From: Bryoerythrophyllum caledonicum
Lineage: Eukaryota; Streptophyta; Bryopsida; Pottiales; Pottiaceae
DNA: 64,000 nt
Direction: 5' to 3'
Assembly: GCA_963971425.1 (NCBI GenBank)
Contig: OZ020518.1
Location: 7,171,989-7,235,988, forward strand
The position numbers and the translations under genes were made by a program. Of this stretch, positions 41,540 through 63,389 are shown in pieces. Within the stretch, counting starts at the first letter, position 1; each line of letters starts with the position of its first letter. Under the pieces are notes generated by a model. The model ran no database searches. It was not told where the DNA came from and saw only the letters and a program-made list of their open reading frames with translations.

Positions 41540-44500
41540 CCGCATGCCTGGCTTTGATGGCGTGGATCATCGAACTTATCTGTTATAGAATTTTGGATTG
41601 ATATCCGTCAACTTAAACTATATTTAATTTTGAAGTCAATGAATTTGATAGGGAAGACCTTGTAATTCTCCTCAGCTAATCGATCTGCCAATGTGTAGGG
41701 CTAGGCTCAATCCTCATATAAGATGGTTGACTTATATTCATTTTGATCAATATAGATTTGAAGCAATTCTGCTTTCAACTAAAGAAAATGAAATGCATGA
41801 GAATTTACTCTGATACCATGTAGAATTATTATATATTGCATTAATAATGCAATGACGATTTTGTATCATGCTTCCACTAAGAGTCTTATGAGATCGTATT
41901 GAACTTTATCTACAGCGAATCATACGAAGCTATGAACAAACAACTGGAACAAAAACATCTATACTCATCAGTGCAATATGCACGCATCAAACATACTGAT
42001 CACTACACAATGTTCAAGCTAAATCTGATCAAGAACGAGAATTAGGTGCTCCGTAGTCACTCCGCACTAATTCCTGTCACAGCAATGCTATCGCTAGCTC
42101 GCTCAACCTGAACTCTCTTCTCTCAGAGGTAAAAACAACTATGCAAGATAAGGCCGGAGGAATGCTCGTTGATAGAGATATACTCGCGCCCAGAACTACC
42201 TACAATTCAAATTCAAACTAAATCATTGGATGAACGTATTGGATGAACGTATATTCATCACTCCCACTCGGGCATCTATGATTCTAACTAAACGTAAACT
42301 TGATCTCTCTCTTGATCAGAGGTATTCTCCCACTTGTGGAGTTGAATCGTTGAGACAATTTGGTGAAGTCACATTAGGGTTAGAGTCGGAGTAGAAACGG
42401 AGTTAAAAGAATGATCGGTGAGGCTTAGAAGGGATCGAAGACAAACGATAGTCTCTCGAGGGACCGCCTTAGTGAATAAATCAACAAGCTGACTCTTTGT
42501 GTTGACGTAGGAAAGGTCAATCTGTTTGTTGACATATTTCTCCCTCATGAAGTAGTACTTATGTTCTATATGTTTCGTTCGTTTATGATAACGAGGACAC
42601 TTCACCAACTGAATCGCTCCTTGATTGTCCGAGTAGAGAAGAGTTGGAGCTTTTTGAGGAACTCCAAGACTCCGCAGTAGATTGCTGATCCAAAGTAGGT
42701 CTTTAACGGTCTCTGCCATAGCGATAAACTCAGCTTCAACGGTAGATTCGGTTGTGCATCCCTGACGCTTGCTGTACCAATTGATGGCGCCATGACTAAG
42801 TAATAGAACGTAGCCTGTGCGAGACTTTCGATCATCAAGGTCGCTAGTAAAATCAGCGTCACAAAATCCATGAAGGATGAGATGCTGCGGTGATCCATAG
42901 TAATGGATGCCAAATTGTTGAGTGCCCTTCAAATATCTTAGAATGCGCTTAGCGGCAGTCCAATGCTTCAGACGTGGTCTCTCAGTGTAAGCAGCAACCT
43001 TGCTTTAGGCGTAGCAGATATCAAAACGGGTCAAAACCATAGCATACATGATCGAACCAATCATAGCCTTGAAAGGAATTTCCGTGTCAAGGAATGGGTC
43101 ATCGGGGTCATCCCATACCGGGTATAAACGTCCGCTGGAGTCGAAACCGGTTGAGAGTTCTCCTTATTAAAATGTTTCAGAAAATCTTGAATATATCGGG
43201 TTTGATGAATGAAGATTGAACCTATAATGGGGTCCCGTTCAATCTGAAAACCGACATAATAAGCTGCTACGCTCCTTAGAACCTTGAAAACCTCTTCAAG
43301 ATGACGAATTATTTGGTCGAGTAGGTGTTTGTCGGTCGAACAGGCAATTCCATCGTCAACAAAAATATCCACAATAGTATCGATTTCTCTTGCTGAGTTT
43401 AGATGATAGTAAACGCAGGGATCATATTCACTAGGCATTAATTGATGGGTTTTAAGAAACTCATCGAATTTCAGGTTCCATTGACATCCGGACTGTTTTA
43501 AACCATAGAGGCTTTTAACAAGTTTGCAGACAAAGTGAAGCCGAGTAGCGTCCTCATAGCCTTCAGGCTGGCGCATGTAAATATCCTCATCAAGCGTACG
43601 GTGTACCATTTAGATAGGCTGTACCTATATCAAATAGCATAAGATGCATCTGTCGTGCAGCTGCAATTGCAAATATAGTTCGGATGGAGGCATGCTTGAT
43701 TACCGGACTATAAGTTTCTTCATAGTCCACTCCAGCTATCTGACTGTAGCCTTTGGCTACTAATCTTGCTTTATATTTGTCGACCTCTCCTGTTGCTTTG
43801 TACTTCAGTTTGTAAACCCACTTATTTTGAATAATCTTCCGATTAGGAGGTGGGGTTACCAGATCCCAAGTATGGTTCTCTAGTAATGAGTTGAACTCAC
43901 GTTGCATAGCCTCTATCCAGTAATCCGCTTCAGGTGATTTCAGCGCACCTTTATATGACTGCGGTTCTGAATACGAAGTAGCAGAAGCAAGGAGAGCTTC
44001 TGAGGACTTTGGAAATCAAGAGCCTTTTGTATCGCATGTAAGATCCGGTGAGGAGAATACATCTATAATCGGGCGATAGGACTGAGGATCATTGAAGGAT
44101 AAAGAAGTATCTCCTGGAGTGGTATCAAACCGAGGATAGATACGAGGTGGTAGTTGATTTCTCCTGGAGTAGGTTTGTACGTTAGGTGAAATAGGTGGTG
44201 AACCAATAGAAGTATTATCAATGGGCTGAGCCATAGGTTCTGTGAAAGATGAACTGCCACATGATGTAGAAGTATCAATGGTTGCGGCAGAACTGCTAGT
44301 AGACTTATGTCCCACTCCAGATGAAGTATTTGACGAGTCAGTTAAAACTCCCATTGGTGATACATCTGTTGTGTCGTGTGAGTCAATTATAGATTCAAGC
44401 GTATATTCTTCAAAACCAGGAAATAGTGTGAAAGGCGATATGGGCGATGTAGCACATTGAGTAGAAAATAGCTTATGAGAATAAAAGGTTTTCTCATCGA

Positions 44501-44820
44501 AAATGACATCAGATCGCTCAATAACTTTTGTTGTTCCCGGGAGCCAGAAACGCCAAGCTTTACTACTGTCACTGTAACCAATGAACATTGTTCGCTGACC
44601 ATGGGATTGGAACTTGGTGCGAAGAATCTTGTCGATAAAAGGATACGCTATAGTGCCAAATACCCGATAATGGTCCACATTAGGTCTCTGATAATACAGA
44701 AGTTCATAAGGTGTCTTGGAACCAACCTGGGAATTGACCGTTCGGTTGAAAATATACACAGCCGTGTGTATAGACTCCGCCCATAAGGTGAGTGGAAGCT
44801 CTGTCATATGGAGCATACTT
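41540..44820 (-). mobile_element. Decayed Ty1/copia sequences: leader piece, LTR and pol remnant
   Basis: The LTR at 41819-42274 (456 bp, TG/CA ends) has an initiator-Met-type primer site on its left (minus strand TGGTATCAGAG, 41808-41818) with leader-like sequence to about 41600. On its right is a minus-strand pol remnant (42275-44820). The order is thus internal-LTR-internal, as left by tandem copies or recombination. The pol remnant holds the end of integrase (LWAESIHTAVYIFNR, PYELLYYQRP, about 44016-44816), reverse transcriptase (WVYKLKYK, YLNGTP, LYGLKQSG, IFVDDG, about 43061-43907) and RNase H (GFCDADFTSDLDDRKS, EAEFIAMAE, SDNQGAIQL, KHIEHKYY, about 42369-42932). It is an old, incomplete copy with several breaks and no 5' part. 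Confidence 0.85.
41819..42274 (-). repeat. Copia LTR
   Basis: On the plus strand it starts tgtagaattatt and ends cactcgggca. The primer-site complement ctctgatacca directly abuts it at 41808-41818. A purine-rich tract (minus strand) near 42300-42323 lies on the other side. Confidence 0.75.
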
Positions 44821-45587
44821 CAAGCTGGACACCATATTCATTAAAATGAGACATTTCAGAGTCTCAATTTATCATGGTGTCTAATTATAGTGAATTTTAT
44901 GTTTCATTAATTTGAGACTATTTATTAAATTGAGACTTAAGCTCAATTGAAATTGCCAAGTACTACATCCTAAAAAATTATCATAGCAAGAATAAAAATA
45001 CTTCTTAAAAATTTGAGCGGATATAAATTTGAGCATCCCTAGCAGGGCTCAAAATTAAACTAAAATGAGACATTTACACTCATTTATAAGCCACCCAAAA
45101 TGCATGTCTTCTCAATTTAAAGGGAAATAAAAATTACCAATTTCAAGAAGTGGTACGTGTTTCAAACAACAAGGTCATTAAAATACCAATCACTAAAAAT
45201 TTAGCACATACTCTAGAAATACATTCAAATATTTATATTAATAGAAAGTATCCATGCATCAAGGATAAATGCACAATTAATCAAACACACAATGTGAACC
45301 ACAATTTATCCATCAATAACTTTATAAACAAACGGCAACGTTTAATGATATTGAAGCAACACAATACATCACTATATGAAACTACAAATTCTAATCTAAT
45401 GTTCTCTACAAATATGCTACGCGAACATTCAAAGTCTCAATTCCACGACAGACCCCCATGTTCAGTACATACTTAGTACAATATCTAGTCCAAAACAACA
45501 CAAGTTCAAATAAGAACATGCACCCCCACCTATTTCGAATTACTAGAATAACTGTTGCCATCAAAAAACAAAAAAACCTGTTGAAAT
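44821..45587. other. Intergenic stretch and 3' flank of the DUF7869 gene
   Basis: AT-rich, no coding region supported. Several gagac(a/t)tt(t) and aattgagact words repeat between 44845 and 45075 (a weak inverted pattern tgagac / gtctca). The last roughly 130 bases are probably the 3' UTR of the minus-strand gene. Confidence 0.4.
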
Positions 45588-48401
45588 CTAATATTCAGCT
45601 AAAGATGCCTTGATTATTTCTACCTGTGATTTTGGAATTTTGAGCCTCAAAGAACTAATGTTCCCACGGAACCTAGGCTTCCAAGCTGTTACAATGCAAT
45701 CTGTATATACCCAGATTGGTTCAGATTCAGATTCTTCTACCCAATTGTTCCCATTACTAGAATCCCACCCTTGGTATGTTTCTAAGTCCACATGACGTTG
45801 AGATGCAGGTTTGTAGTATTGCACTTTAATCTCATGAGAATGTTCACGATCTGGATGTGGATTAGTCAATGCCAAGGCGATCCAAAATGGGCGCAAATCC
45901 CCATCAGCTGAACGCACCGCAAGTACATAGCCCTCATATACATCTCTACCAACCCGGAACGATGGAGGCGGACAATGACGTCGTTGTCCAATGAATGGAG
46001 GGTCTTCGGCATACTCCTCCCTCAATGTACCATCTATATCGTACTCATCCACCATAGATGGAGCATATCTAGATAGTGGCCAAAATCCCTCTCGTAGAGA
46101 ACTCGATTCTTCGAGTGGCACCTCAAGAGCAGCCTTTACACCTCTCCAATAATACATGATATGCTCATTCTTCCTCCTGTATTCACCTGAGATATCCTCA
46201 TTTGCCATGGATTCCCAAAGACTTAGAAATCCAGAAATACCCTTCATAACCTCGTCATAATTCTCATGACGTCGCGGATTGAGAGGAAGTGGCTGCCCAT
46301 GAGGCAATATTGGTCTACCATCTGCCGTCATTTTCCACAACTGAATTCCTCCATTCTCCTCGGGCAACCAATCCCTATCTGTACAAAGAATTTTGTACTG
46401 CATCTTTGGCAAACCATCAGAATCCTTGTAAAATTTGAACTGCTGGCCCTTTGTATGACCTATGAGGGCCTCATTGCCGATGCACAAATATCCATTAAGA
46501 AAGCCCTTGAAGTCGGGCACCTCTTCAATAAGATGTGGAATAACTGGCTTCTCTTCAGCATCCATGAATGACTTCATCAAGAGTGGAATCGTTGGATAGC
46601 TGTTTGACTTAAGTTTGGTACTCCATCTCCCAAACACTGCATCAATATCCTCGTGAGTATGACCAACAAGTAAGAAGTTCACGTGTACTTCTCGGAAAAT
46701 ACCCAAATGAACAAGTAGGGAGAAGAAAGCAAACACAAATCTATTCTTATTGTCTCCTGTGGCATTATCCAATTGCATTTGTAGAATTGGTGGTAAGTGC
46801 CTTGCAGGAACAGGTTCAACCGGTGGAGCCGCAAGGGATCCAAGGCACACATTGGCATTAGCAAGCACAGCCTCAGACAGTGGAGAAGCTCTCCCTCTTG
46901 CAAATAAATCACGAGAAGAATACACCGGTGGACTCTCTAAGTCCCGAAGCAACTTAGCAATGGATCCAACTGTGTGATTCGAGTCGGTGGGGAAGATGTC
47001 AAGACTATAATGCGCATAACGGACATCTCCATGTCCATAAGCAATCATTCCAGTCACAACTACAGGGAGTTTCATGAAGGACTCCGTCGCCTTATTCTTG
47101 TGAGAAAAATGGGGAGATGTTGTTTTGCTGTGATCCATTTTATCATGGATGATGCAAACAACGTCATCTGGTCTATCCTCCGAGTTCTTCCGGTTCCCAT
47201 AATATAAAATACGATGAGTCTGTTGGGAGGCCTGATGCAACTTCAATTTGGTATCCCACGTATTGAATGCGGAGGATCCTCGTGTACTAGCCTTCTTCAA
47301 TTGCTTCAATTGGTCGCATCTACCACAGCGAGCAAAGTTGTCACCCGGCTTCTTAGTGGAAAAATGTTCAAATTTTGAGCTCCGAATTCGGCTAAGACCA
47401 GACAAAGATATTGGTTTGAGCCCAAATCTTAAATTCACCTCATTCACTTTGGGCAACACTGCACTCCATTGAAAGGAGGAAGGAAGATGTTTCGAAACGA
47501 CCTTCTCCCCAGTGCCAAGAGTAGTAGTCTTGTTAGGACTACTATCAGCAGCATCGTCAAGTAGATCGTGCAATGTAGCAATTGCTTGGAGAGTATGGGT
47601 GCGAGGCTTCTTAGTCCCAGAATTGCCGTGTGCCATCGCTCGCACTTCATCCTTCGCATCACTTTTGTATCGGTAGAATGTGGCTCGGCTAACCCCCATG
47701 ATTGTACACCATGCATCTTGGCATACATCAATTCCATCGAGCGTCACCACATGGTTGCCATTGGAGTCAATGTGCATTTGCCTATGCACATCAAGCAAAA
47801 CATGTTTCCGAAAGTATACACCTCCAATGTCATTGTGAACTTGCGTTCGAAGTACAGAAATTAAACTGCGCGGAAAGCGTTGCGTACAATTTCTTGGACA
47901 ACAAACAATGCTCGCAACAAGGTTGATCGATTGTGCAGAAAGGAGTATTTCCTTCTTTGGTGGGGAAGGCAGCACTCGACTCGACCGATTACTCTCATAC
48001 TGTCGAAGACCAATTCTTGGACCCCGACGGAATACCTTCAAAGCGGCATTGTAAATGCTAGTTTGCTCTTGGTCGTACAAACTCACATTACGAAGAAAGA
48101 CCTGTCGAATTGGCCATGCTCGGAGAGCAAACATCCAATTCAAGGGAATATCATCCTCATTTAAGGATTCAGCAATAAGAATCACGACATGGTCATCTCC
48201 AAGTGGCCGGCCTCCAGTTTCAGGAATTAAACTGGAATCAACACTCTGACATAGTCCGATTCCGACGTTATTCCCTGATGTGTTTCGAAGGATAACGCGC
48301 TTCGAAAACCAGGCAGCGCGAGGAATACCCTCACAAGGAGCAACATCGGAAGGCAAGGTTGGAGGAGCTCGATCTCTGACATCAAATGAGTCTCCTTCCA
48401 T
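45588..48401 (-). CDS. DUF7869-type, DDE-like putative transposase
   Basis: A single 937-codon frame without introns. A helix-turn-helix-like segment (CTIMGVSRATFYRYKSD, residues about 227-245) precedes a CGRCD zinc-like motif (about 363). The DUF7869 core shows HDKMDHSK (about 420), MQLDN (about 543) and FLLVGHTHEDIDAVFGRWS (about 575-595). The conserved acidic residues in this spacing fit an RNase H-fold DDE/D core. This is inference, because the family has no proven activity. A C-terminal region of about 300 residues follows (DVYEGYVLAVRSADGD, WIALALTNPHP), possibly a chromatin- or DNA-binding fold. Relatives occur in mosses, algae, fungi and animals, often as repeated genes. The start is the first Met after an upstream stop. 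Upstream lie the palindrome array and two E2F-type sites. The frame is fully open, so it is recent or under selection. Confidence 0.72.
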   Translation of the reverse strand: MEGDSFDVRDRAPPTLPSDVAPCEGIPRAAWFSKRVILRNTSGNNVGIGLCQSVDSSLIPETGGRPLGDDHVVILIAESLNEDDIPLNWMFALRAWPIRQVFLRNVSLYDQEQTSIYNAALKVFRRGPRIGLRQYESNRSSRVLPSPPKKEILLSAQSINLVASIVCCPRNCTQRFPRSLISVLRTQVHNDIGGVYFRKHVLLDVHRQMHIDSNGNHVVTLDGIDVCQDAWCTIMGVSRATFYRYKSDAKDEVRAMAHGNSGTKKPRTHTLQAIATLHDLLDDAADSSPNKTTTLGTGEKVVSKHLPSSFQWSAVLPKVNEVNLRFGLKPISLSGLSRIRSSKFEHFSTKKPGDNFARCGRCDQLKQLKKASTRGSSAFNTWDTKLKLHQASQQTHRILYYGNRKNSEDRPDDVVCIIHDKMDHSKTTSPHFSHKNKATESFMKLPVVVTGMIAYGHGDVRYAHYSLDIFPTDSNHTVGSIAKLLRDLESPPVYSSRDLFARGRASPLSEAVLANANVCLGSLAAPPVEPVPARHLPPILQMQLDNATGDNKNRFVFAFFSLLVHLGIFREVHVNFLLVGHTHEDIDAVFGRWSTKLKSNSYPTIPLLMKSFMDAEEKPVIPHLIEEVPDFKGFLNGYLCIGNEALIGHTKGQQFKFYKDSDGLPKMQYKILCTDRDWLPEENGGIQLWKMTADGRPILPHGQPLPLNPRRHENYDEVMKGISGFLSLWESMANEDISGEYRRKNEHIMYYWRGVKAALEVPLEESSSLREGFWPLSRYAPSMVDEYDIDGTLREEYAEDPPFIGQRRHCPPPSFRVGRDVYEGYVLAVRSADGDLRPFWIALALTNPHPDREHSHEIKVQYYKPASQRHVDLETYQGWDSSNGNNWVEESESEPIWVYTDCIVTAWKPRFRGNISSLRLKIPKSQVEIIKASLAEY

Positions 48402-49370
48402 CTACAAAAAATCCATTTGACGTGGCTTTAGTTCAGAAATGATGTTCATTGAAATATGAAAAATAATAAGCACCTTGAATCCAAAGCAATATAAATTTGG
48501 ACAAGTGCATTTAGGCACAAAGGCAAAATCCAAAAACGCAATTGAGTATCCTCCGCTCAAGGATATGAATGAGAGAAATTAGAAATACACATGACTATTT
48601 ATTTAAACAGTATCCTCGATTCGAGGATGCTAATATTATGATTCCAATGGAGAGAACGACATCCTAGCGGTCTCAAAAAATATCAACAGACATTTAAGTA
48701 CTCGTTAAGATATATTGAAGACGAGTAGAATTAAGTAGGTCGGTCATCGACGAGTAAAAGTTCAGTACGGACTCGAGAAAAAATGAAGTGTAGACGATCT
48801 CTTCTTTGAAGTAAACAAGAGGAGTTGATTAAAATATAGATTGGCAGTCCTTTATGGATATTATGGGATTATCCTCGGGTCGAGGATAGCCGACTACTAA
48901 TAATTTGAAGTACTCTATAGTGAAACTTAACCGACGAAACGATTCAGTCCTTAAATAAGGATCTCATTTATAGAATTTCTTGATCGACAGCCGAACTAGC
49001 AAAAGGCAGTATTATCCTCGAACCGAGGATAAATTTAATGACTATCTCACTCATAGGACTCGTTGATCGACTGCTGTACATGCGAGAGTCAGTGGTATCC
49101 TCGACCCGAGGATAAATGGAATGAGGATCATTTTATATGACTCATTGATCAGTTGCTGAAGTAGCGAGAGTCAGTGTTATCCTCGACCCGAAGATAAATA
49201 AAATGAGGATCCTCTCATAGGTCAGGTTGGTCGACTGATGAACTAGGAAGAGTCAGTGATATCCTCGACCCGAGGATAAATGGAATGAGGATCTCATTCA
49301 TAGGATTTGTTGATCAACACCTGAACTAGCAAGAATCAATTTTATCCTCGACCCGAGGATAAATGGTTAG
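48402..49370. promoter_or_regulatory. Palindrome cluster upstream of the DUF7869 gene
   Basis: Eight copies of the interrupted palindrome TATCCTCG-nnn-CGAGGATA or near variants lie at 48547 (weak), 48611, 48870, 49013, 49096, 49178, 49260 and 49343. The spacer is mostly ACC, or its inverse GGT. This lies in the 5' flank, or a 5' UTR intron, of the minus-strand gene. Confidence 0.8.
48973..49365. repeat. 82-bp tandem repeat array, five units, each with a palindrome
   Basis: Five diverged units of about 82 bp begin near 48980, 49063, 49145, 49228 and 49309. Each reads roughly ttgatcgactgctgaactagc-gagagtcagtg, then the palindrome, then aaatggaatgaggatctcattcatagg. The palindrome is the best conserved part, which suggests selection on it or a role in amplification. 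Confidence 0.8.
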
Positions 49371-50170
49371 TTTTAAATAGTAATGTGATATGCTACAGTG
49401 ATCATGAGTAGCGTTGGAGCATTCACAGCACACTTCCTTTTAATTGCAAACAAATTCTACGGTGCATTAGAAGTACTACACCGAGAAGAATGATATCGAC
49501 AATGAAAGAAATACACATACTTTGAACAAACAGCCGTGATGCGGACGGCCTACGGGCTCGGGTCAGGTTTAGGGTCGAATGATCACAGCTAAGCCTCAGA
49601 CAACAATCTCTTGATCTTGAAGTACCCTTGAGAGGAAATCGAGCTCTCTACAAGGATGCGCAAATGAAAAAGAAATTCAAACATACTTCAGATAAACTCA
49701 GACATATTATTGACGACTACTGTGAATGTTCTCAAAACAAGCAAGACACTCAGCGGAGTAGAGAGAGAGAAAAGAGGATGCAGCAGGTGCAAGAGTAGAA
49801 AATGAACTTCTGAAAATGAGCATACGGTAGTCTTCTGCGTGGCGGAGCACAAAAGGTGGCGCTAGGCGGGAAAACTTTATTCCAACGTCACGAGGATTTG
49901 GGGGCGGGAAATGGTATCCACAGTCCTACTTCTTAGTTGCCGATGTCCTATTTCGGGTTTACGGTACGCACTAATTGCAGTAAGCCACTAGCCCGGAATC
50001 TACGCATGCATTAAAAAAGTGATGCATTGGATAATGATGCCTTTCTTTCTGTGCAGTAATCCTTCCTTTCTGTGCAGTAAAGGCTCTCTTTACTTGTGTC
50101 ACAGAAAAAAAATAACAATAATAATAATAAATAAATAAATAAAAAGATAAGTGATGACACAAATTTATCC
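49371..50170 (-). promoter_or_regulatory. Probable promoter of the DUF7869 gene with paired E2F-type sites
   Basis: On the minus strand TTTTCCCGCC (49865-49874) and ATTTCCCGCC (49903-49912) match the E2F consensus TTTSSCGC, 38 bases apart and in the same orientation. Such pairs drive S-phase expression of plant replication genes. A 5' UTR intron between here and 48401 is possible. An (AAT)n/(AAAT)n microsatellite lies at about 50109-50142. Confidence 0.4.
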
Positions 50171-50826
50171 CCTTTAACCCCTAAATGATCAACTGTCCCC
50201 CTGGGATGAAATTGGTTTTCGGCATGTACCTAAAATTTGACCAAAATTTAATTTATAAAGATAACCTCATCAGTAGATTGCCTTTAATAAGAGCTACTAA
50301 GAGGTTTTTTTTTTACATATTAGTTTTGCGATTTAAATGTAAGTACCACTCAAAGTTAAAAAACGGGGACTCCAGGCAGCTCCAAAATATTTGACAATAG
50401 TTTCTATTGACATTGAGATTTATCACACAAATAACAAATATTTTCTTCACTTGAAATTTTCTAAAATAGTTATTGTCTTTAGTGGAAAAAGGAATTTTAT
50501 CCCAACTCAAACATTTTCACACATTGCCGGGCAACGGGGAAAAAAACTTCATCTTTTCTACATAAAACCTAGAGATCTTCATGTTTTTCACATTTATTTT
50601 TTCAAAAAAAAATGTGGTGAAAACCTTCTTATTGACCGTTTATATTATCATTCGAAAACATACGTAGTTCACCAAAATATATGTGAAATATCAATTTTGA
50701 ACCTCCCCTCCTCGCACACTTGTTTTGAATATGCTACACCCCTTTTTTACCTCTAAAAATTGGTATGTTGGGAAATGTATGTGAAACATCACGCTTAAGA
50801 CAATGGTAAAAGATTTAGACCTTGTA
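50171..50826. other. Unassigned stretch
   Basis: AT-rich, with several T or A tracts. I see no coding region, RNA gene or clear repeat in it. Confidence 0.4.
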
Positions 50827-53180
50827 CAGTCAAACCTCGATATGTGTTACCTCAATAAGTGTTAAAACTCTAGATGTATTATGGAGATTTCCGCTCCCTT
50901 AAAATTAAAACTAGTAAGTGTTATGTGTTAAGTATTATGCAATGTCGCGCTCCCAACTTTGTTGAATTTACCTCGGTAAATGATAAGTTTCCAAAAAAAG
51001 ACTTTTTGTAAGAGCCATTGCTTGTGGGGAGATAATTTTGAGGTAAAGTAATAGTTTCTTGTTGCAAAGTGACTCTAGATGTCCATTCTAGAAACAAATT
51101 GATAGGTAGATGTAATATTAAGTTCATAATCTAATAGATCATATATTTTTAAGCTCATAAAGTAAAGGATAAGTGTACTTTTTTGTTTATAAACTTCATA
51201 ATGAAAGGCAACTAGGCAAGGCGGCAAAGACTATAAGAAGAGAGTGAAGGCTATAGAATTATTATTTGTGTTGTGAACTCATTCATAGAATATATGTTGT
51301 TAGAGTTTTCATTTGTATTGCAAATTCATCAATAGAAGATATATTGTTCAAGAAAATTTCCTACAATTTGCAATGGCAAAGGGTCATGAGTTCACGTTAG
51401 AGCAAATACAAGAGATTATTCAATATCGTGAGACTCTGTTAGCTAGCAGTGGAAAGATTACCAATAGAGCATTAATTGCGTGGGCCAATGCACACTTTCA
51501 AGTAAACGCATCTGAGATGAATATTGGAAGAATAGTAAAGCAAAAAGAACACATTAGTGGACTTGACGTTGGGTACCTCGGTGATTCCAAGCGCTTACAA
51601 AAGTCCCAATGCCCAGAAGTGGAGGAAGCCACTTTTACTTGGTTTACGATAATGTAGAAAAAGAATGTTGTTTTATCTGATGACCTTGTGGTGGCGTCTG
51701 CAGTACTCCCTAGAGGTGCTAACGAGAAGAAGCTTCAATTTTCTCATGGATGGGTCCAAAATTTCAAGAAGATATGTAATATCAAGGGCTATACCCGTCA
51801 TGGAGAAGATGCATCAGTTGACATTTGTGAATCTGAGGTTTTTTAAGAAAATGGAAGACATCAAAACACTTGAATCTCATTACAGGAGTAGTGATGTTTT
51901 CAATATGGATGAAATTGGTCTTTTTTACAGGTTGGAACCAAATCATACATTAGCTATGTAAAGGTTATCTGGAAAAAAAAAGCAGAAGGAGCGCATCATG
52001 GTGGCACTTACCGCAAATGCTGATGGAAGCATCATTCTTCCTCCATTGGTTATCAATCAATATTTGATGCCTCGAGCTTTTACAAGCACGCACATTCTAA
52101 ACCCAAAAAATCTAGGTATACAATGCCATGCTAATAAAAAAGCATGGATGACAACACAGATTTTTGAACAATTTATGTTATATTTTGAGAGGAGGATGGT
52201 AAGTGCCGAGAAGGAGAAAGTACTTATGTAGGTGGATAATTTGTCTGGACATCAAGTGCTTAATGTCGATTCAAGATTGAAGGTGACACAAAATTTAGAG
52301 TTTTTGCCTCCAGTTACAACTAGTCGTTTCTAGCCTATGGATGCAAGGATCATTGCATCATTCAAAGCTCAATATACGAAGTTATTAATTCAACATCAAA
52401 TAGATTGTATTTCAACTCGCAAGAGTTTGGCGATTGATGTGTACCAAGATGTTACCATGGTTGAGAAGCCTGGGCGTAACGGAGTGACTCCAATAACAAT
52501 TCGAAATTGTTGAAGACACACGGGGATTCTTTCAGGTCTTGTAGAAAATGAAGTCCTTCAAGAGCAGCGCACGAAAGAGGTAGAGGAGGCTGCTGCTGTA
52601 TTGGAACAACTAAGTTTGATATCCTCTGAGACTCAGACCCCTTACATGAATGTTCAAGAGTATTTAAATTATGAGATGGAGTTTGATTTGAATAATCCTT
52701 ATCAGCCCACTGATGAAGAAATTTATTTAAATGCTTCCATCTCAACAACAAGGTAGTGAACATGAAGATAGTGATCCGGATGAAGCTAATCCTCACGATA
52801 GAGTAGAAGAAGTTGTAGGCTTTAAAGATGTAGGTAGTAGTGCTCTTCAAACTTTGAAGAAGTTTTTGGAGCAAAGACCTAAAGACACCATGTTATCTAT
52901 GAGGTATATTGAAGCACTAGAAAAGAAAGTAGAAGCTTGGCGTGTAGAAGAAACTTGCCAAAGTACTATTGATTCATTCTTTCAACAGACTTAGATGAAT
53001 AATGAATCAATGTTTTGTAATTTCACCAATTTTTTCTATAAATGTTATGTATTTACCTTTTTAATTCTTATGAGTGTTATTTTTTATAAGTGTTACAAAT
53101 CATCGGCATCACTCTCTATAAGTGTTAAGTGTTACTAGTGCCTAAGTGTTAACTAAAAGTATGCTCCCAACCCCTAACAC
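50827..53180 (+). pseudogene. Decayed pogo/Tigger-like transposon
   Basis: A left tip CAGTCAAACCTCGATATGTG preceded by TA (50825) is typical of pogo/Tigger elements. Repeated taagtgtta words lie at both ends, but I could not find the right tip. The transposase starts MAKGHEFTLEQIQ (51373). It has a helix-turn-helix (SGKITNRALIAWANAHF), a second DNA-binding part, FNMDEIGLFYRL (first Asp), ALTANADGSIILPPLVI, VDNLSGH (second Asp, after a stop near 52230) and PMDARIIASFKAQY (third Asp, just after another stop). The C-terminal part is at 52731-52994. Stops near 51655, 51959, 52230 and 52332 and frame changes show it is dead. It is a different lineage from the 33514-39044 transposase. Confidence 0.75.
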
Positions 53181-53400
53181 GGTCACTAAGAAGGATTAGA
53201 CCACGTCATGTAATAGAACTTGGAAGGATTAGACCACGTCTTGTAATAGAAGGGGTGGTAATATTTGAAAAAATTGTGCAAGGAGTGGAGGTTGGAATGA
53301 TGCCATTTCACTTAATAATTTGGGAACAAAGTATGCTTTCCCCACGGTCACTAAGAAGGATTAGACGACGTCTTGTAATAGAACTAATACATAGTGAAAA
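53181..53400. repeat. Short direct repeats
   Basis: Three copies of a line close to aaggattagaccacgtc(a/t)tgtaatagaa begin near 53192, 53223 and 53355. The first and last also share acggtcactaag just upstream. They probably come from a local duplication at the end of the pogo-like remnant. Confidence 0.55.
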
Positions 53401-53492
53401 ATTATAAAGTGACAAAATTATATGTAGAATAGAATTATGTTTTTCTACATCCTTGGTTGACTATTTGTGGATTTTGTGAAAATATTTGAGTG

Positions 53493-55256
53493 GGATAAAA
53501 TGCATTTTTTCACTACGGACTATATAAGATTCGGGACCATATAAAAAACAATGTATTAAACTTAACCTAGTGTTGAAAATCTAAAATATAGTACTGTGGC
53601 TTGGCAAAAGTTTTGGGAGTTGATGGAAAAGCCCCCAATAAAAATGAAATATAAATGGAATATACACTTTAATTGAAATCCAAATTCACTTGGTGTTATA
53701 AAGATTTATATCCACTTCAATTCTACTTGAATCCACATTGGTGAATATATTCCACTTGAATACCCATTGGTGAATATATTCCATTTGAATCAACATTGGT
53801 GAATATTTTGCACTTGGTGTTATTCGAATGCTACCCACAAATAATATTCACGTAGTACTAGATAAGTTACTTTTAGAAGTGGCATTCTTTGGTTTTAAAA
53901 AAAACAATGTTGCAATCTTTATTTAGAAATTGACAAATTTACTCTAATTGAAATCCATTATTCTTCTCATTTCTCAACTTAAATTCAGTGTGTGTGAGTG
54001 TGTGTGAGTGTGTGTGTTTTATGTGTGAGTCTATGTATGTGTGTCTTAGACACACATTTAACTAATATGAATTGAATTTAATAGTTCATTTTTAAGAACA
54101 TAGTTTAGGGTTTTATTTATATGAGTAATTTACAAAAATATTTGGAGCTTTGGATATTACAAGTTGCTATGTGGTGTATGATCAAATTATTTGCTTGCAT
54201 TTAAATTTATCTTCATGTTACTTTTGCTTGCCAAGAAAAAGTAAGTAGTTTTAACATTTATATTTGATCATGGATTCCATGGCAAAACCAATAATCGGCT
54301 TGTACATGTCAATTTATATATATTATTATTTATGAATATCTTTATAGTAAAAATGTCAAATTTCATTTTCATTTTCATGCATGAATTTGCAAATGGAATA
54401 TCATGTTTATTATTTTAAATAAAACTCATGAAGGAACATAGTTTCTTTATTTCTTGAATTATTTTGCACAATTTTCTATTTGCAGTCCTAGGGACAAATA
54501 ATTTGATCACAATGCGCACCTTTAGGTTCCCATTTCCCTGTTATGCGCATCACTATACATATTCACATACATACATTTTAGTGCATAAGTATAAATTATA
54601 AATTATTATTGAAATGATCTTGTAATTGAGTACTCTAAATTATCAGAATCATCCATAAAGTTTATTACAGCCAACAACACATTTAAAAGTAACTTCTTTG
54701 TACTTATGTGAATATTATTTCTGGATAGTATTAATTTCTTTATTAAGTGAACAAGAACATTTTAAAAATGAGAATTCAATACCATTAAATATAATCAATT
54801 AGACCTATATCGTACATTTGCTTCAATTCCCTTGGTGTTATAAAGAAATGAAATCCACATTGCATGCTTTTTTTTGGCTTTTTTGATATGAATGGTTTGT
54901 TTAGGGTTTAATAAAGTTTGATTCATTTCTCCATTTCCAAGTACATATGTATATTGATTTCTCCATTGATTTTTATTTACTTGTTACACTAGTTTTCTGA
55001 ATGTGCACAAAGTACTCCATGTAGTTTGAAAAAAAAAGAATTGAACCTTAGCATGCTCTATCAATTTGGATTCCAATGAAAGTGTATACTCTATTTCTGA
55101 AAATTCGTTTATTTACTAGCACTTCCGGCAACTCCGATTTTTTTTTCAAGGACACACTACTATATTTGAGATTTTCAACACTAGTAAGTTGTATACATTT
55201 TCTTATATATTGTCCATAATCAATTTTTGTCTGTAGCAAAAAAATGCATTTTATCC
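53493..55256. mobile_element. Long-TIR DNA element, non-coding
   Basis: The ends are diverged inverted repeats of about 130-150 bp: ggataaaatgcatttttt at 53493 matches the inverse at 55239-55256, and ctagtgttgaaaatct at 53562 matches the inverse at 55163-55190. The inside has three copies of a roughly 31-bp line (attggtgaatatattccacttgaa, about 53735-53810), a (GTGTGTGA)n microsatellite (about 53988-54020) and no coding region. The family and target duplication are not clear. Confidence 0.55.
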
Positions 55257-55282
55257 ATGGTAAAAGATTTTTCACGCATTGC

Positions 55283-55560
55283 CACTATACTGAAGATGGC
55301 TTTTACTGTAATGATACGAATCGTGTATTTACTCTTGTACAATATTTGTTAAGAAGTTACCAAGTACTGTTAGCCCCCATTGTCATTAATATTATCTTTC
55401 AGTCCTGCACCTACCCTAATACCTGTTGTATTTGCCACAATCAACCACCCACCAAAATTTGGAACAAGTTGACAAATAGTGATAGCCCCCAATAAACCGC
55501 CTATTGGCCGCCATGCATATGAAACGCCCATCTTGTCAACAACCACATCTCGTTATCCTC
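55283..55560. repeat. Interspersed repeat, copy 2
   Basis: A diverged relative of 32193-32475 with the same orientation and order of conserved lines. AT-rich degenerate repeats follow it at about 55600-56250, similar to those after the pogo-like transposase. It may be a deletion derivative of that element with the gene removed. Confidence 0.5.
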
Positions 55561-56700
55561 CCATTTGTAACTATCCCAATTCACATATCATGCATTCTTT
55601 GAATTAAAACATGAATATCCAACTAATATTAAATGTATATTTCTACATTTTACAAAAAAAAGGATGATTCTAGAATGAATGTTTCAAGAATATTCAATGC
55701 ATGTTTTTATATTTTATAAATGCATAGATGAGTTTGAATGAATATTTCAAGAGTATTGAAAGTATATTTCTATATTGAAGAAAAAAGAGATGATTTTTGA
55801 ATGATTGTTTCAAGAATATTTAATGTATATTGCAATCTACAAAGAATCAAGCATAGTTAATGTATCTTTGTATCTTTTCAGGAATATTAAAAAAAACATA
55901 TACAAATATTTAAGGAATATTTGTATATGTAAGGTATCCCAATATGTTTGAATAATATTTATTCTACATATGTATATTTAACGAATACTTATTGTATATT
56001 ATTATATTTAAAGATCATTTAGGAAACACGTCAATAGTTTTAAATAAGTTTTAAGAGTTTTATATTTATTTTTCCTAGGATGATTAAAATATCTAATGTA
56101 TATTTGCATTAAAAGGAACATTTAATGAATTGCTAATAAATTTTTTAATGTATATTTAATGTGTATTTGAATATTAATAAAATTTTCAATGAATATTTGA
56201 TGCATATTTAATAAATATGTATTGAGTATGATATGTAAATAACTATTTTTATGAGATATTTATGTTTGTTTTGTTTTGAAAATTTCTTTTATTTTTCCTC
56301 GTCTCTTCTAATAAATTTTCAAATTTTGTTGATCTTGTAGTTCTAATTTCGAATTTTCTACTTCTGAACAGTTTATGTTCTCTAATTTTTGGGATTTTTC
56401 ATTTGTTCCATATCTACGTTCTATTTTTTTCAAACATTCCTCGTGCAAATTTACAAGAAGTAGGAAAAATACTATAGTAAATAAAAAATTTAGTTGAAAT
56501 AGTAAATCGCAAATTATATAAAAATTTAGTAAATGTAAATGAAGCCAAAAATTAGTAAATTTAAAATTAGTAAATATTTAGTAAATGTAAATCCAAAGTA
56601 GTAAATTTATTGTAGTGTACTATAGAAAATTTAGTTAACATTTCAATTACAAGAAATGGTGTAAAATTTTTGGATTGAAAAGTCCCTTTTGCAGTAAAGG
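55561..56700. other. AT-rich non-coding stretch
   Basis: Degenerate aatgtatatttgaatatt-type repeats run to about 56250, and then AT-rich sequence with several agtaaatt words (56470-56620). No coding region seen. Confidence 0.45.
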
Positions 56701-57600
56701 TCTCCGTTTGTTTTTCTTTTCTTTTTGTTCTATGCCCGCTGCCCGTTCCCGTGCTGCCCGCTGCCCGATTACCCTGCCCGCTGCCCGCTGCCCGAAACGG
56801 CATTTGGCGGCGCGGTGAACCACCGCGACTCTCTCACCTCTCTCCCCATTCTCTCGTCACCTTCTCTTTGCGCACTCCCGCGGCTTTCCCTCTTCCACTC
56901 CAAACCTCCCCATTTCCTCTTCTTCTTCAAACCCTATCCATTATCTCTTCCACTTCAAACCCTCCCCAACTGTGAGATGTGTGAGGTTTCTGTGAGGTGC
57001 GTGTGAAGGTGTGTAGGTTTTGTGTGTGTGAGGTGCGCATCTAGGGTTTGTGTATGTGAGCTGCGTAAGTAGTGTTTGAGTGTGTGAGGTTTGTGTGTAG
57101 GGTTTGTGTGTGTGAGGTGCTGGAGTAGTGTTTGTGTGTGTGAGGTTTGTGTGTAGGGTTTGTGTGTTGGAAGTGTGCGTGTGTGAGGTGTGTATGTGAG
57201 GTTTGTGTGACGTGCGTGTGTGAGGTGTGTGTGTGTGTGTGAGTCCTGTATGTGAGGAGTGTGTGTGTGAGGATTGTGTGACGTGCGTGTGTGAGGTGTG
57301 TGTGTGTGTGTGAGTCCTATATGTGAGGAGTGTGTGTGTGAGGTTTGTGTGCGTTGTGTGTGAGAGTTTGGTGTAAGATTTGTGTGAGGTTTTTGTAAGG
57401 TTCGTGTGAGATTTGTGTGTGGCTCGTGTGAGGTTTGTGTGAAGTGTATACTTGAGAGGGATTAGTTACTGTGATTGTTTAGGTGCACTTAGGGTAAGAT
57501 AGTGAGTTCAGGGTTTCAATTTAGAGTATTTCACAATAAAACATAGTGCAAGATTTCGTGAGGGTTTAGGGTTTCTTCAACACAGACATTTCTTTGTAGA
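56701..57600 (+). promoter_or_regulatory. Probable promoter and 5' UTR of the ParB-like gene
   Basis: About seven copies of a gctgcccg unit lie at 56735-56800. Then comes an E2F-like TTTGGCGG (about 56804) and a CT-rich leader-like stretch (56825-56975), both usual near plant transcription starts. Next is a long GT-rich simple repeat (about 56970-57450, units of tgtgtgaggt) that is probably intronic or UTR. The transcription start itself is not visible from sequence. Confidence 0.35.
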
Positions 57601-57867
57601 GTTTGCTGTGTTCATATTTCCACGTGCTTTGTATTACATTGTGCATCATTCTGTGTTGTTTACGATTGTGCACATTACAGTATTCCTCAACTGCATTGTG
57701 TACAACTCAGTTGATTACAATCACACAGCAGACTTCACATCATTTCGCAAGGTACTCACTTCTTAGATTACTTGAGTTGCAATGCTGATTAACCAGTTCA
57801 ATCTAATGTAAAAATATTACCGGTAATTTATGGACTTAGGGTACTAGGATCACCAAATATCACAGCT

Positions 57868-58514
57868 TATCCTCGACTCGAGGATACGTTATAGACCTTC
57901 GTCTAGCAACTTATGCTCGAGTCGAGGATAAGAGTCCATCCTCTGATTACATTTTATCCTCGAGTCGAGGATAAAATAAGTAAAAAAAAACTAAAATATC
58001 AGTTCCGCTTAATCAAAATGTTCTACAAATTTCTACATCTCAGTATTAGGTGTCCTTGAGTCGAAAATAAGTGTAAGTCTGTGCAAACAGATCTATCTTG
58101 CTTATCAAATAATTTGACACATCAGAATACTCACCATTAATAGGTTGTATTGAACTGATGAATGATATATTCTAACTCAGAACCCCTTCGTAAGTAATAG
58201 AATTATCCTCGACTCGAAGATACTTGCGAGTCCCAAGGTGATTAGTCTATGTTCCAATCAAGATTAAAAGAATATATTAAGAAAATAATCTAACAAGGAT
58301 GAATTAGGACTGATGCACAAAAAATATAAAAAATTTCTGTAACGAATTATCCCAGTATCCTCGAGTCGAGGATACAATTCAACCTCTGACACTAACGATA
58401 AAAAATAATTATTTCACAATGAAAATAATGCTCAAATACTTTAGCCGAGGATGTGTTCAGAATATATATTATCTAAGTCAGAATCAGTTGATAACTATCC
58501 TCGACTCGAGGATA
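57868..58514. promoter_or_regulatory. Palindrome cluster upstream of the ParB-like gene
   Basis: Copies of TATCCTCG-nnn-CGAGGATA lie at 57868, 57912 (one change), 57955, 58204 (one change), 58356 and 58496, plus a weak relative near 58052. The spacer is ACT or AGT, which are inverses of each other. The last copy lies 62 bases before the start codon. Confidence 0.82.
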
Positions 58515-58575
58515 ATAATAAATGTTATCATCTAACTCGTTTTGCGAATGAGTCCTCGCAGACAACCTCATCACA

Positions 58576-61500
58576 ATGGATCCCACCGACGGCTACGACT
58601 ACTCGGGGTCAACGTACTTCATCACGGAGTTCGAAAATCCCTTTGCCCCGCTGCCATTCATCGACGATGTCGTCGAGAACTACGGCAAGCTTTGGTCGTT
58701 CAACCCCGACATCTTAGGATGGACCCTCTTCAGGTCGGAAAAGAACGTTCATCTATCGTTCAAACTGAAGGAGGAAATTCCGTATGTTCCACTGAACAGA
58801 AACGAGAGAGTAACATTCGTGGAGCAACGCCGTTGTGATTACATCGTTCTCGGTATCCAGGCCGTGGACGATGGTGGGAAAGACCTACCTCACTTTCACT
58901 CGATTGTTGTGAAAGTCGGTGACACTTTCGGACAATTTGACTTCATTGAATTGCTTGAGAGTGCCGATAAGAATGGACAGGGGGCGCTGCGTCAGGCGTT
59001 TGAAAAATACAGTCCGTGGTCAAACGACGACGCTGAGAAGGTTAACAGGAGACTGGTACGTATTCACCAACTCCTATCGAACTTTGAGGCCCGTCCGGTT
59101 CCGGTCGCTCCACCTCCACGACGTCGGCCCAAGCAGGAGAGCGCAACAGCTGGCGAGGTTACCACAGAAGCGGCAGATGCGACTCGAAGCACGAGTCGTG
59201 GTGCACCCCGGAGGGCTTCTGAGATGGCGTCAAACCTAGGGGAACCATCAAAACGGAAGAAGACTGCTGCGGCCGGTGGAAGTTCGACCTCGACTGTTAC
59301 GAGGGCTGCAACACCGGTGAAATCGCGGAATGACCCACAAGTGGACTTCGAGAAGATAACGGAGTCCCAACGACTGTTTTGGGAGGAGTGTAAGTCATGC
59401 TTTCCGTTCGAGTCCACCTTCACAGTAAACATCGAACAGTGTGTCCCCGCAAAAGCCCAGTTCGTGATTCGTGGGATGGAGGAGGGCATTGTCCGGAACT
59501 CCATGGACTTTCTTGTCCAACTTGGAGAAGTAAACCAGCGTCAGAAAATTTGCATCTGCCCGATCGATGACGCTGGAGAACCGATAACGAATCGTCCAAA
59601 TTCCTGGGACGATATCAAGGGTGGGAAGTTCATGCTGATCAACGGCCAACACAGCGTCGAAGCTTCCAGAAGACTTCAACATGTTGAACAATGCGGGGAG
59701 CAACGAAAACGAGACCTGTGCGAATGGGATGCATATGTTGTCTGGACAACGGATCCTCTGAAGTTGCAGAGGATTTCAAAGTTCTACAACGATACAAACT
59801 ACCTTGATCATGCCCAACCTACATGGGAGAACCAGATTTCAAGCTGCAGGAGAATCTGGCTTAACTCTGGTAGACCCAGCTACCAACACGACGAGGGCGA
59901 CTTGCGAATGAATGGTGCCAACTTTGACCAAGAGAAGTATTTGGTAAGGTTCCAGTTCCCGAAGTATCCTCGACTCGAGGATAATCTTTCATGGCTTTTA
60001 TGTGCTCCCGCTAGTTGATTTATTATATGCATCTTGTCAAAGTATCCTCGAGCCGAGGATACTCTTCCATGCGGTATCCAAGATAATGTTTTCTAATGTT
60101 GTCTGTATTGTGATGCAGTTGTTTGCGAAGTTGATTGTCACGCGCTTCCAGAACATCGATCCCACGAGGGAAGGAAAGCAAGTGAACAAGTCATCGGACC
60201 TTACCAATGAGATTAAGGTCATCACTCTTCCAGATGACATTTTCAACCTCTGGGAAAAATTCCTCGATCAGCACAGCCGCGGAGTCATCGTAAACCCCGA
60301 CACAGCTTGTCCATACAAGGACGCTCGGGGTTTCAAGCCTTCCCCAATCCACCGTGAGTTTTTTAAAAGGTTGGGTCATCTGTCTGACCAGGATTTAAGA
60401 GATTTGTTCACTTACCTGGTTGACAGTGATCGCGGGCAAGGATATCCGAAGGTCACGCTTCGTAGGACTGGTGTGGTACATGGATCGTGCTACCACTACG
60501 AGGAGTGGGCTGATCGAAGGAAGAAGAAGCGCGTCGTTAGGCAGGAGCTGGTGCACATCGACCCATCCTTATTGTTCTTACTTCCGAATGGGTCGATCGA
60601 CGACGCAATGTGGAAGGAGTGGAAGGAGAAACACCGTGTATCTTCCGCTACATACAACATGCTCCTCTGTCAACCCGACAAGGAGTTCTGGTCGATGAGG
60701 TTGACCAATGCGGGGAAGCTGAAACGAGCTTCTCATCTCCTGGAGAAGTTCCCGAACGTTCTTCCGTTCTTCAAGAAATTTCTACATTTGAAGAACCTCT
60801 TCACCCCGCACGACGGATATGTGAAACTCCGCAAGTTTAATGCAGAGAAGCTGGAGTTTGGTGATTACTTCACCCCTCCAGATGATTCTAAGGAGTTTAC
60901 ACTGGGACTTCTCGACCTCCGTGAGGTACCCGGATGGCTGTCCAAGGACGACTCCTTGGACGAACCATACTTTGCAGACTTCATGAATGCCATGAAGTTG
61001 CAAAAGAGTACCCCAAACATGAGCACTCCTCATGTTTGGGTCTGGATCACCTCCTCTGCCAATCGTGCGTTGCAAGCGGCAAAGTTTGCCGAGAAGCGAA
61101 TGGCCCGGTATTCGCCCGTCTCCTCGGCATACGTTTCGTCAGCGAATGAGCGCTTGTACTACGGGACGTCCAGGGCTAAGGTTACGGATGTTAACCTACT
61201 CTTCTTAGTGAAGAAGAGTCATCCCAGGCTTCCGTACTCATCAACAGAGTGAGGCCGTTCTACTCTGCACCAGATACGTTCTTCTACAAAGAGAAGAATA
61301 AGTACCTGGAGGCAGAATTCTCCGTCCACGGCTCCGAATTACGGATGGAGTTTTACTTGGAGCTACTCCAGGATTTCTGCAATCGAAAGGAGAGGGTACT
61401 CGAAATTTTCTGTGGTTCCAAATTTATGCTGTCCAATCTGGTACGATCTCTTTTGAATCATTGTAGTCTATCCTCGAGTCGAGGATACAGCTTACGGTAT

Positions 61501-63389
61501 GTTGTCGTCTGTTATTTTGTAGTCTATCCTCGAGTCGAGGATAGCAAGTTCTATCTGATCATTAGTTATTCAGTTGTTTATCCTCGAGTCGAGGATAGAC
61601 AACTGATTTCATTTCAGATAAAATTTGCCATTATCCAATTTCTAATCTTATGTTCTCATGTCTCATGCAGATGTTTGGAACGTCTTTCTATGGACTCATT
61701 GATGAATCCTTCCGGCTGCAGTACAAGAATCAAATGCAGCGCATTTTTCAGTTGGATATGAATGATTTCATACACAAGGACTGTGCTTACCTCCAGCCGT
61801 TGCCAACCAACGTTGGAGGTGCATCTACATCGACCGCTCCGGCTGCACCTCCGGAACGCGTTCCAAGGGCCCGAATATCGCCAAGGAGGGCTGAACGTGT
61901 TCGCAGCCGTGCTCAACGCTCAGGTGCTGGATCTCGGCAGGACTCCCCCGAGACCCAGAGGGCATCTGGTACCGGCGCACCGACTCTGCAGCCTACTCAA
62001 GATGACTCTCCCTTGCTCGTCAATCCATATGGGAGCAATGACGGCGTTGATCTTTCGATCCTTAGCTTGGATGATTGTGAACCGTCCTTCCGATCTCGTA
62101 GTAGATCGCCGCCTCGCCGACCTCCTGTGTTGGCGGACGACGACCTTCCGGTAGACGGCGAAGCCGTTTATATGGAAGTTCAAGGCGGTCCTGACATATC
62201 TCATTTAGTTGGTACAGCCCCCTCACCGGGTGTTCCCGTTGCTGGTACCGCCCCTTCAGCAGGTGTTTCTGTCGTTGGTACCGCCCCTTCAGCAGATGTT
62301 TCTGTCGCTGGTACCGCCCCTTCAGCAGATGTTTCTGTCGCTGGTACCACCCCCGCAGCAGTTGTTCCCGTCGCTCGTACAGTTGTCAAGTACGTCCTTG
62401 TCATCCTGCTGTCCGACTCCAGTGATGATGAAGGTGGTGATCGTCCCAGTACATCTCAGAATGTGGTGTCACCGACCGTGTTGGCAATGATAGTTACGAT
62501 GGATGTGGAGGACGCTCCCATACATGAGGCCGCCTTCGCAGATGCAGCTGGGCATGCTCCGGCCCCTCGCCCTCCGGTGGAGGGCGCCTCTGTGCTTGAT
62601 GACACCTTCGCAAATGCAGTTGGTCATGCTCCGGCCCCTAGTGTGCCTGTGAAGTACGAACCCTGTGCTGACTTTTATGAGCACCAACGCAAGCAACGCC
62701 TTCAGGAACAGCAGGAGAGGCAGACAATCTTGGCTCAGTTAGAGGCTGCCCAGAAGAGACAGGCTGAGATGGAATCTGCTTTCGAGAAGCAGCGGGCGGA
62801 GTCTGATGAACAGAAGGAGAGAATGGCGGCATCAATCCGTGCGGAGATCCAAGCGCAGATGTTGGTGGAACTCAACAGACGTCTTGCTGAGCAAGCTCAC
62901 ATTTCGGTTCCCATCCCCGCTGCTCCATCGGGATCCGTCGTGTCTCATCCCTCCACTTATCCTCGCATCGAGGATAACTCTGTGGCTGAGCCTCTGCTTC
63001 GTTCAACTGGATTGCAACCTTGCACTTCATCTAACCCAGTTGGAGAAGCCTCAGTTTCGGTTGAGGTGCCAGTTCTTCACGGGGATATCCCCTCTTCATC
63101 GTCCGGGCCTTCTGAGTATCCTCGACCCGAGGATATCCTACCTTATAATTCATCTCCGATTTCGCCTCTGATAGATGGGGTCGGCTTTTCTGTTCGTGTG
63201 CGTGAAGTTAATGTTGAAGGTGCGCCTGGTGGTTCGACTCTTTTGGTCCCTGCTCAACTTGTGGAAGAGTCGTCTCATGCGGTAGCTGCGGTGGAGGGAG
63301 AAGAGGTGTGCATGGAGGAGCGCGTCGACTACGAGCCGTCTCCCGAGCCTCAGGGACCACAGTCATCAGAGGTGGATAAGGTTGGCTAG
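58576..63389 (+). CDS. ParB-like domain / degenerate permuted amino-methyltransferase protein, multi-exon
   Basis: Exon 1 is 58576-59943, intron 59944-60118 (gtaagg...gatgcag), exon 2 from 60119, intron 61441-61670 (gtacga...catgcag), last exon 61671-63389; both introns are phase 0. A final intron near 63380-63501 is possible. Domains: an N-terminal unknown part; a basic Pro/Arg linker; a ParB-like part around KFMLINGQHSVEASRRL (exon 1 residues about 350-370) and FYNDTNYLDHA; in exon 2, LGLLDLREVPGW at the place of motif IV (usually DPPY), then HVWVWITSS and LLFLVKKSHP; after 61250, VLEIFCGSKFMLSNL (motif I, FxGxG-like) and, across the intron, MFGTSFYGLID. This order is that of permuted N4/N6-amino methyltransferases, but the catalytic motif is not kept. 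The tail has an 11-residue repeat, Pro-rich linkers and a coiled coil (about 62670-62900). The frame changes near 61250 with no obvious intron, so this copy may be damaged. It is probably nuclear and DNA-binding. Confidence 0.6.
59944..60118 (+). other. Intron 1 of the ParB-like gene, with two palindromes
   Basis: A 175-bp GT-AG intron. Palindromes lie at 59965-59983 (spacer ACT) and 60043-60061 (spacer AGC). They take up over one fifth of the intron. Confidence 0.7.
61441..61670 (+). other. Intron of the ParB-like gene, with three palindromes
   Basis: A 230-bp GT-AG intron with palindromes at 61469-61487, 61526-61544 and 61579-61597, all with spacer AGT. The copies are 57 and 53 bases apart and share a few flanking bases (tagtcta/ttgttta), which suggests local duplication. 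Confidence 0.72.
62211..62385 (+). repeat. In-frame 33-bp (11-residue) repeat in the ParB-like gene
   Basis: Five units of the type VGTAPSADVSVA lie in a row, each containing ggtaccgccccttcagcag. The two middle units are nearly identical, so expansion is recent. It lies in a disordered linker. Confidence 0.75.
62958..63135 (+). repeat. Two palindromes inside coding sequence
   Basis: 62958-62976 (spacer CAT) is read YPRIED and 63117-63135 (spacer ACC) is read YPRPED. The palindrome has no stop in any frame on either strand, so it can sit in an exon without ending the protein. Confidence 0.8.

Follow-up and report, generated by a model that had tools for sequence, protein, structure and literature searches.

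The stretch of DNA analyzed here (the window) consists of 64,000 nucleotides from the moss Bryoerythrophyllum caledonicum (contig OZ020518.1, positions 7,171,989 to 7,235,988 of the forward strand). It contains two divergent genes, one encoding a DUF7869 protein and the other, called here the partner gene, described as 'ParB-like' in an earlier note on this DNA, together with a family of 19-bp interrupted palindromes found near both of them.

The transposon and its genes

Comparison with copies elsewhere in the genome, followed by reading of the end points, placed both genes and both palindrome clusters in a single DNA transposon of 21,561 bp, which starts at 44828, runs to the window end at 64000 and stops 2,388 bases further on, in the adjoining locus L036. 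A terminal inverted repeat of about 26 bp, RACACYRTATTCATTAAAATGAGACA, lies at 44828-44853 (plus strand), with its partner at L036 base 2,388, and outside the repeats stands a target duplication, GCTG (44824-44827 and L036 bases 2389-2392). Copia-type domains (RVT_2, SH3, gag_pre-integrs and rve) are present in the flanks, which, when joined with one GCTG, form one copia integrase frame, save for a stop codon at the joint (within copia sequence). Another copy, G, sits inside a DUF7869 gene of a different lineage; here too, joining the flanks restores a single frame, and the sequences at the two ends of this copy are TTAT and TTGT. The inverted repeats, and the frames restored on joining the flanks, show the element to be a DNA transposon of 21.6 kb that duplicates 4 bp of its target, the duplication having been examined at two insertions only (the window element and copy G). 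The interrupted copia-type retrotransposon (42369-44819 and L036:2367-3998) is split by the element and is therefore the older insertion.

A 25-mer of the inverted repeat was present in 266 copies in the genome (control, 0). Among the first 100 places listed, ten pairs of repeats faced each other at distances of 9.3-23.4 kb; four of them enclosed a listed partner copy and six held no listed gene copy. In the same part of the chromosome an exact repeat lay within 12 kb of 16 of the 31 listed partner copies, with about 1.6 expected from a random control of 33 points. There are at least 48 near-full-length DUF7869 copies (two fragments excluded) and at least 94 partner copies; 42 of the 48 have a partner gene within 21 kb on the 5' side, in divergent orientation in all 42 cases.

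The DUF7869 gene (45588-48401, minus strand) is one open frame of 936-937 amino acids, encoding a probable transposase. DUF7869 (PF25273, E 4.2e-43) is the sole Pfam profile above the cut-off in this protein; HTH_7 gave a weak match under the cut-off (E 0.041), and the best E value of a PDB profile search was 0.094. Four aspartates (D419, D422, D544 and D586) are invariant in 30 aligned sequences, and named relatives occur in Ceratodon purpureus and Physcomitrium patens. No paper on DUF7869 was found in the open-licence PubMed Central (PMC) literature.

The partner gene was modelled in this analysis. Exon 1 (58576-59943, plus strand) was delimited by a start codon and a GT donor conserved in copies; it is followed on the same strand by a second conserved coding stretch (60119-61249, exon ends approximate) and a third (61670-63389, start approximate). 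No Pfam match was obtained with the window exon and seven relatives, nor an NCBIfam match with the window protein; PDB profile searches gave nothing below E 0.3 (best E 0.76), and a scan of viral contigs returned five stretches and no relative. The name 'ParB-like' rests on an INGQHS motif, which we take to resemble ParB/Srx-type motifs, and finds no counterpart among Pfam, NCBIfam or PDB profiles. A basic stretch with the consensus ESSRKRRKS, which resembles a nuclear signal, is common to the aligned relatives. Inside the transposon and 3' of the partner coding sequence lies a NIF phosphatase-like frame (L036:1-615, PF03031, E 8.9e-10), which is probably part of the same gene; what had been called the last exon of the partner gene indeed bears palindromes (at 62958 and 63117) and is probably not the last. 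In the seven NIF stretches, out of nine, where the motif is readable, D-L/I-N-G stands at the place of the DxD that we assume to be the catalytic motif of this domain, so that the NIF domain may not be an active phosphatase.

Distribution and constraint of the palindromes

The palindrome TATCCTCG-nnn-CGAGGATA (arms of 8 bp, spacer of 3 bp) occurs in the window in 16 exact copies, four with one mismatch and one with two. All 21 fall within 48547-63135, and none with up to two mismatches was detected before 48547 or in 49362-57867; one match with three mismatches is at 45249. Chance does not account for them, as 100 dinucleotide shuffles gave a mean of 0.02 and a maximum of 1 at up to two mismatches. 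The earlier note had counted about 22 and had seen none in the first 45 kb or between the clusters: the family and its confinement hold at this threshold, with the count corrected to 21.

Eight copies lie 5' of the DUF7869 gene (48547-49361). Five of these (49013-49343) are inside 82-bp tandem repeats and so do not represent five independent origins. The other 13 belong to the partner gene: six 5' of the start codon (57868-58514), two in intron 1 (59965-60061), three in intron 2 (61469-61597) and two in frame in a coding exon on the plus strand, where they encode the peptides YPRIED (62958-62976) and YPRPED (63117-63135). Each palindrome thus lies either in the partner gene itself or no more than about 1 kb 5' of a start codon, and the palindromes are 3.3-3.7 kb from the element ends.

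Across the genome 1,911 exact palindromes were counted, and the reversed pattern gave 0. The surroundings of 50 sites were analyzed, namely the first listed, which come from the first part of one chromosome and are not a random sample. For forty-one of them, a match to DUF7869, the partner or NIF is no further than 2 kb away (for three, a nucleotide match to the partner gene at locus F). Seven lie 6.7-8.4 kb from such matches and seem to belong to clusters on the DUF7869 side of elements D, H and I, an assignment made for element D by position only. In this sample, with 48 of 50 sites within 9 kb of element genes, the palindromes are not spread evenly through unrelated regions. The remaining two are in minisatellites (L016:4490-8819 and L017:4847-6113), and the 9.9 kb around each gave no match to DUF7869, the partner or NIF. 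These arrays have a period of about 42 bp and consist mostly of TATCCCCG-nnn-CGGGGATA, present in 13 and 18 exact copies; each array also has a single unit with TATCCTCG on both arms.

Conservation was measured against copy K; in the partner region (6,275 columns) it is 86.4% identical to the window element. The arms agree at 200 of 208 positions, the spacers at 32 of 39 and the 20-bp flanks at 370 of 519 (arms versus flanks, p 4e-16; arms versus spacer, p 0.004), so that the arms are better conserved than their flanks between paralogous loci. In G, J, H, D and L037 (58-61% identical), agreement over aligned positions was 59-77% for arms, 42-58% for spacers and 34-39% for flanks, figures which may be raised by anchoring of the aligner on the palindromes. 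The first intron-1 palindrome retains 16 of 16 arm bases in seven of seven copies, about 20 nt past the donor and at a near-constant distance from it, between unrelated flanks. In the coding exon, the second palindrome is exact in the window element, K, F, G, J and D (J having CGG for CGA), and the first in the window element, K and F. A decaying family of miniature inverted-repeat transposable elements was rejected as the origin of the palindromes, which hold kept places inside genes with unrelated flanks.

The arms could in principle be alike without any reader, through quasi-palindrome correction and copying of the element rather than selection. Correction does make arms match, the minisatellite units with TATCCTCG on both arms display such a paired change from TATCCCCG, and five of the window palindromes stem from tandem duplication; however, this process would neither keep the same eight bases in place while the flanks are lost nor yield the same version at many places in one element, and we find it hardly credible.

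The substitution pattern was studied in 106 sites from 17 clusters. The spacer, described in the earlier note as variable, is more constrained than was supposed, to a symmetric R-S-Y (symmetrised position 1: A151 G52 C5 T4; position 2: G or C in 184 of 212), while the conservation claimed for the arms stands. The palindromes could act in RNA, folding into 8-bp hairpins, in leaders and close to splice sites, to be recognised by the splicing machinery or by a protein of the element; the fixed place past the intron-1 donor would suit this, and from their position all the palindromes might be transcribed. Against it, transitions do not favour G-U pairs: the 27 single transitions in arms comprise 12 that keep a wobble pair and 15 that break it, a small sample, and the spacer is symmetric, as expected for double-stranded DNA. 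All five arm transversions break the base pair. We regard a role in RNA as improbable.

The earlier note had described the 8.3 kb between the two clusters as transposons; they proved to be mostly the element's own spacer, common to copy K. Within them, 2.4 kb (50835-53242) are absent from copies K and G and are probably a later insertion, whose two short frames (51304-51961) gave no Pfam match. Elsewhere in the window, other retrotransposon polyprotein frames (RVT_1, RNase H and rve) lie at 9288-15515 (2,075 amino acids, no stop) and 21199-24789.

Lineage-specific versions of the palindrome

A scan of bacterial genomes led to the recovery of three partner-gene relatives (L037-L039) in contigs of the cyanobacterial bin AVDCRST_MAG81; the contigs L037-L040 of this bin carry eukaryotic transposon genes and are evidently stray moss DNA. 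Five exact TATCCTCG sites are present in L037 (71% identical). L038 and L039 (26-27% identical) contain seven and six exact copies of TCAGCTCG-nnn-CGAGCTGA and no TATCCTCG palindrome with up to three mismatches. Both have these sites in intron 1 and downstream; L039 also has them on the 5' side of the gene, which in L038 is cut off. L040, a DUF7869 relative (49%), carries TTAGCTCG-nnn-CGAGCTAA in its 5' flank, once exact and twice with one mismatch. These versions, or dialects, also exist in the genome of the moss itself. At locus I, a DUF7869 gene of another lineage is preceded by eight imperfect TCAGCTCG sites (one to three mismatches), mostly 117-126 bp apart, and followed downstream by one exact site; at locus H, two exact TTAGCTCG sites lie near a NIF frame of that other lineage. 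Genome-wide, the TCAGCTCG palindrome, first found elsewhere, occurs 1,086 times and a permuted palindrome 0 times. In the TCAGCTCG and TTAGCTCG dialects the spacer is ACT/AGT in 22 of 25 sites, and in the related elements that use such other arms the change is alike on both sides of the palindrome. Together with the conserved arms, the symmetric spacer and the lack of preference for wobble pairs, such paired changes support the reading of the palindromes as sites for a dimer, as the earlier note had proposed.

Partner-family proteins in databases often read on into intron 1, and their tails were used to deduce the arms of further families. Among 61 usable tails from 96 proteins, 39 could be translated from a perfect 8-3-8 palindrome built on TCG-nnn-CGA, a core picked after several dialects were known, compared with 0.8 for shuffled tails. 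The arms obtained were TATCCTCG, TATCGTCG (or TATCTTCG), TCAGCTCG, TTAGCTCG, TTAGATCG, TCAGATCG, TCAGGTCG and TTAGGTCG. On a tree of exon-1 proteins (49 rows), the eight dialect labels require seven changes, which is the minimum. In this tree labels were assigned by eye for P0026, P0027, P0132, P0136, P0152 and P0165, the last conflicting with the blind tail result; the arm was picked among options for P0013, P0017, P0020, P0024, P0110, P0111, P0113, P0117 and P0171; P0176 was omitted. With strict labels (36 rows: 30 proteins with unambiguous tail labels and six rows read from DNA), seven labels require seven changes, against a minimum of six and a shuffled mean of 20.3. The near-copies P0130, P0141, P0147 and P0148 are not independent. 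The arm type follows the partner-protein tree almost without conflict. The versions of the palindrome in related families, changed alike in both halves, suggest that each transposon family makes a protein reading only its own DNA.

Host-factor sites are common in the promoters of plant transposons, and the palindromes might likewise be read by a host factor, either for silencing or as a captured promoter element. A single factor would not explain several dialects in one genome, each tied to an element lineage, and L037, from another source, has the identical TATCCTCG form; a host reader thus seems very improbable.

The DUF7869 protein itself could read the palindromes, being held on the element or repressing its own gene and the partner gene. 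Palindromes do lie 5' of its gene, the protein gave the weak HTH_7 match below the cut-off, and its relative L040 has a dialect of its own. However, 13 of the 21 copies are in the partner gene, and the palindromes are kilobases away from the ends, where another motif is found: TTGAGACT (44860-44937 and L036:2344), a candidate transposase site of which four of the five copies in the element are within about 110 bp of an end. The distance from the ends led us to reject recognition of the ends by the transposase as the main role of the palindromes, and DUF7869 is on the whole an unlikely reader.

A predicted reader and its known counterparts

Taken together, the results are best accommodated if the palindromes are bound by a symmetric dimer of a protein that is encoded in the transposon, most likely the product of the partner gene. 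This protein would bind the sites of its own family, 5' of both genes, in the partner introns and in a coding exon, and would thereby control the expression of the element genes or keep both genes from being silenced; related families would have diverged to private versions of the palindrome. The case for a dimeric reader made by the element is built on the paired arm changes, the symmetric spacer, the constraint on the arms and the dialects that follow lineages yet coexist in one genome, and the case for a control of element expression on the location of the palindromes, near both genes and far from the ends. It is very likely that a protein binds the palindromes as DNA, and likely that this protein is encoded by the element. 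That such a dimeric reader controls the element's own genes is, we believe, fairly probable. The partner protein is somewhat favoured over DUF7869 as the reader, and activation or protection from silencing is about evenly balanced with repression.

Several observations weigh against this interpretation. No known DNA-binding domain was recognised in the partner protein by profile searches. The coding-exon palindromes are degraded in some copies, the first departing from the consensus at two positions in G, J and D and at three in H, and the aligned second at two in H, where an exact copy lies 33 columns upstream. The two sampled sites in minisatellites have no element genes near, and on the strict tree TCAGCTCG and TCAGATCG need two changes each. 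Wherever both were seen, a change of partner lineage goes with a change of DUF7869 lineage, so the tree cannot tell which of the two proteins reads the palindrome. Moreover, descent alone would link palindrome and protein, so that it is the paired arms and the constraint that carry the case for a reader.

Two systems offer partial likenesses. In bacterial ParB/parS, clusters of palindromic sites lie near the gene of their reader, as the moss palindromes lie near the gene of the presumed reader, and the INGQHS motif adds a resemblance; membership was rejected, as no ParB profile, neither of the nuclease-like nor of the HTH domain, matched in Pfam, NCBIfam or PDB, and no partner ATPase was seen, although none was sought. 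The maize Spm element, of the CACTA type, has an accessory protein, TnpA, with subterminal motifs, and a 3-bp target duplication. Common to both would be an accessory protein with many short sites within the element that encodes it, whereas the moss palindromes are internal and the duplication is 4 bp.

Sola DNA transposons, according to the available parts of PMC10741241 and PMC3627910, have a 4-bp target duplication, reach sizes above 15 kb and are reported from the moss Physcomitrella. The moss element shares the 4-bp duplication (exact GCTG in the window, TTAT/TTGT in copy G; two insertions), and the invariant aspartates of DUF7869 could form a DDD triad of the Sola type; those parts of the two papers mention neither palindromic sites nor an accessory gene.

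The best reading is that the system works like VANC of the Arabidopsis VANDAL elements without being a member of that group. The passages available from PMC5735166 and PMC10398659 present VANC as anti-silencing proteins of VANDAL (Mutator-like) transposons. According to those of PMC5735166, VANC motifs lie in VANC and VANB introns and upstream of VANA, partly as tandem repeats, and vary from one relative to another; the protein and its motif are described as coevolving, and the motif, YAGTATTAY, is non-palindromic and arrayed in a single orientation. As far as these passages describe it, the likeness covers a transposon with several genes, a dense short motif upstream of a gene and in introns, partly in tandem repeats, and motif variants in the noncoding parts that are specific to lineages. 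In contrast, the moss element has a 19-bp palindrome, of which two copies are also in frame in coding sequence. It further differs from VANDAL in its 4-bp duplication, its partner protein without a recognised domain, its downstream NIF frame and its transposase family; a Mutator-like transposase was not recognised, DUF7869 being the only profile to pass the cut-off.

No paper on the moss element was found by title, including through the arm sequences, among the open-licence PMC papers listed; it may have appeared in print elsewhere. A broader proposal, which we put forward tentatively and at somewhat less than an even chance, is that the element represents an undescribed lineage of plant DNA transposons with a self-address. 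Its partner protein, joined to a NIF (polymerase-phosphatase-like) domain, would read a palindrome of 19 bp in which the core, TCG-RSY-CGA, is fixed and the outer bases depend on the lineage (eight dialects being deduced), families of one genome would each regulate or protect only their own copies, and the site would be kept even in coding exons.

The main cases known to us of transposons that encode sequence-specific regulators for motifs of their own are VANC in Arabidopsis and TnpA in maize. In the moss the same principle seems to be at work in a different element and another plant lineage, here with a palindromic site. As the element offers many natural pairs of protein and site of known kinship, the joint change of reader and address would be directly testable, and the families would supply a set of DNA-binding proteins with differing targets for side-by-side assay.

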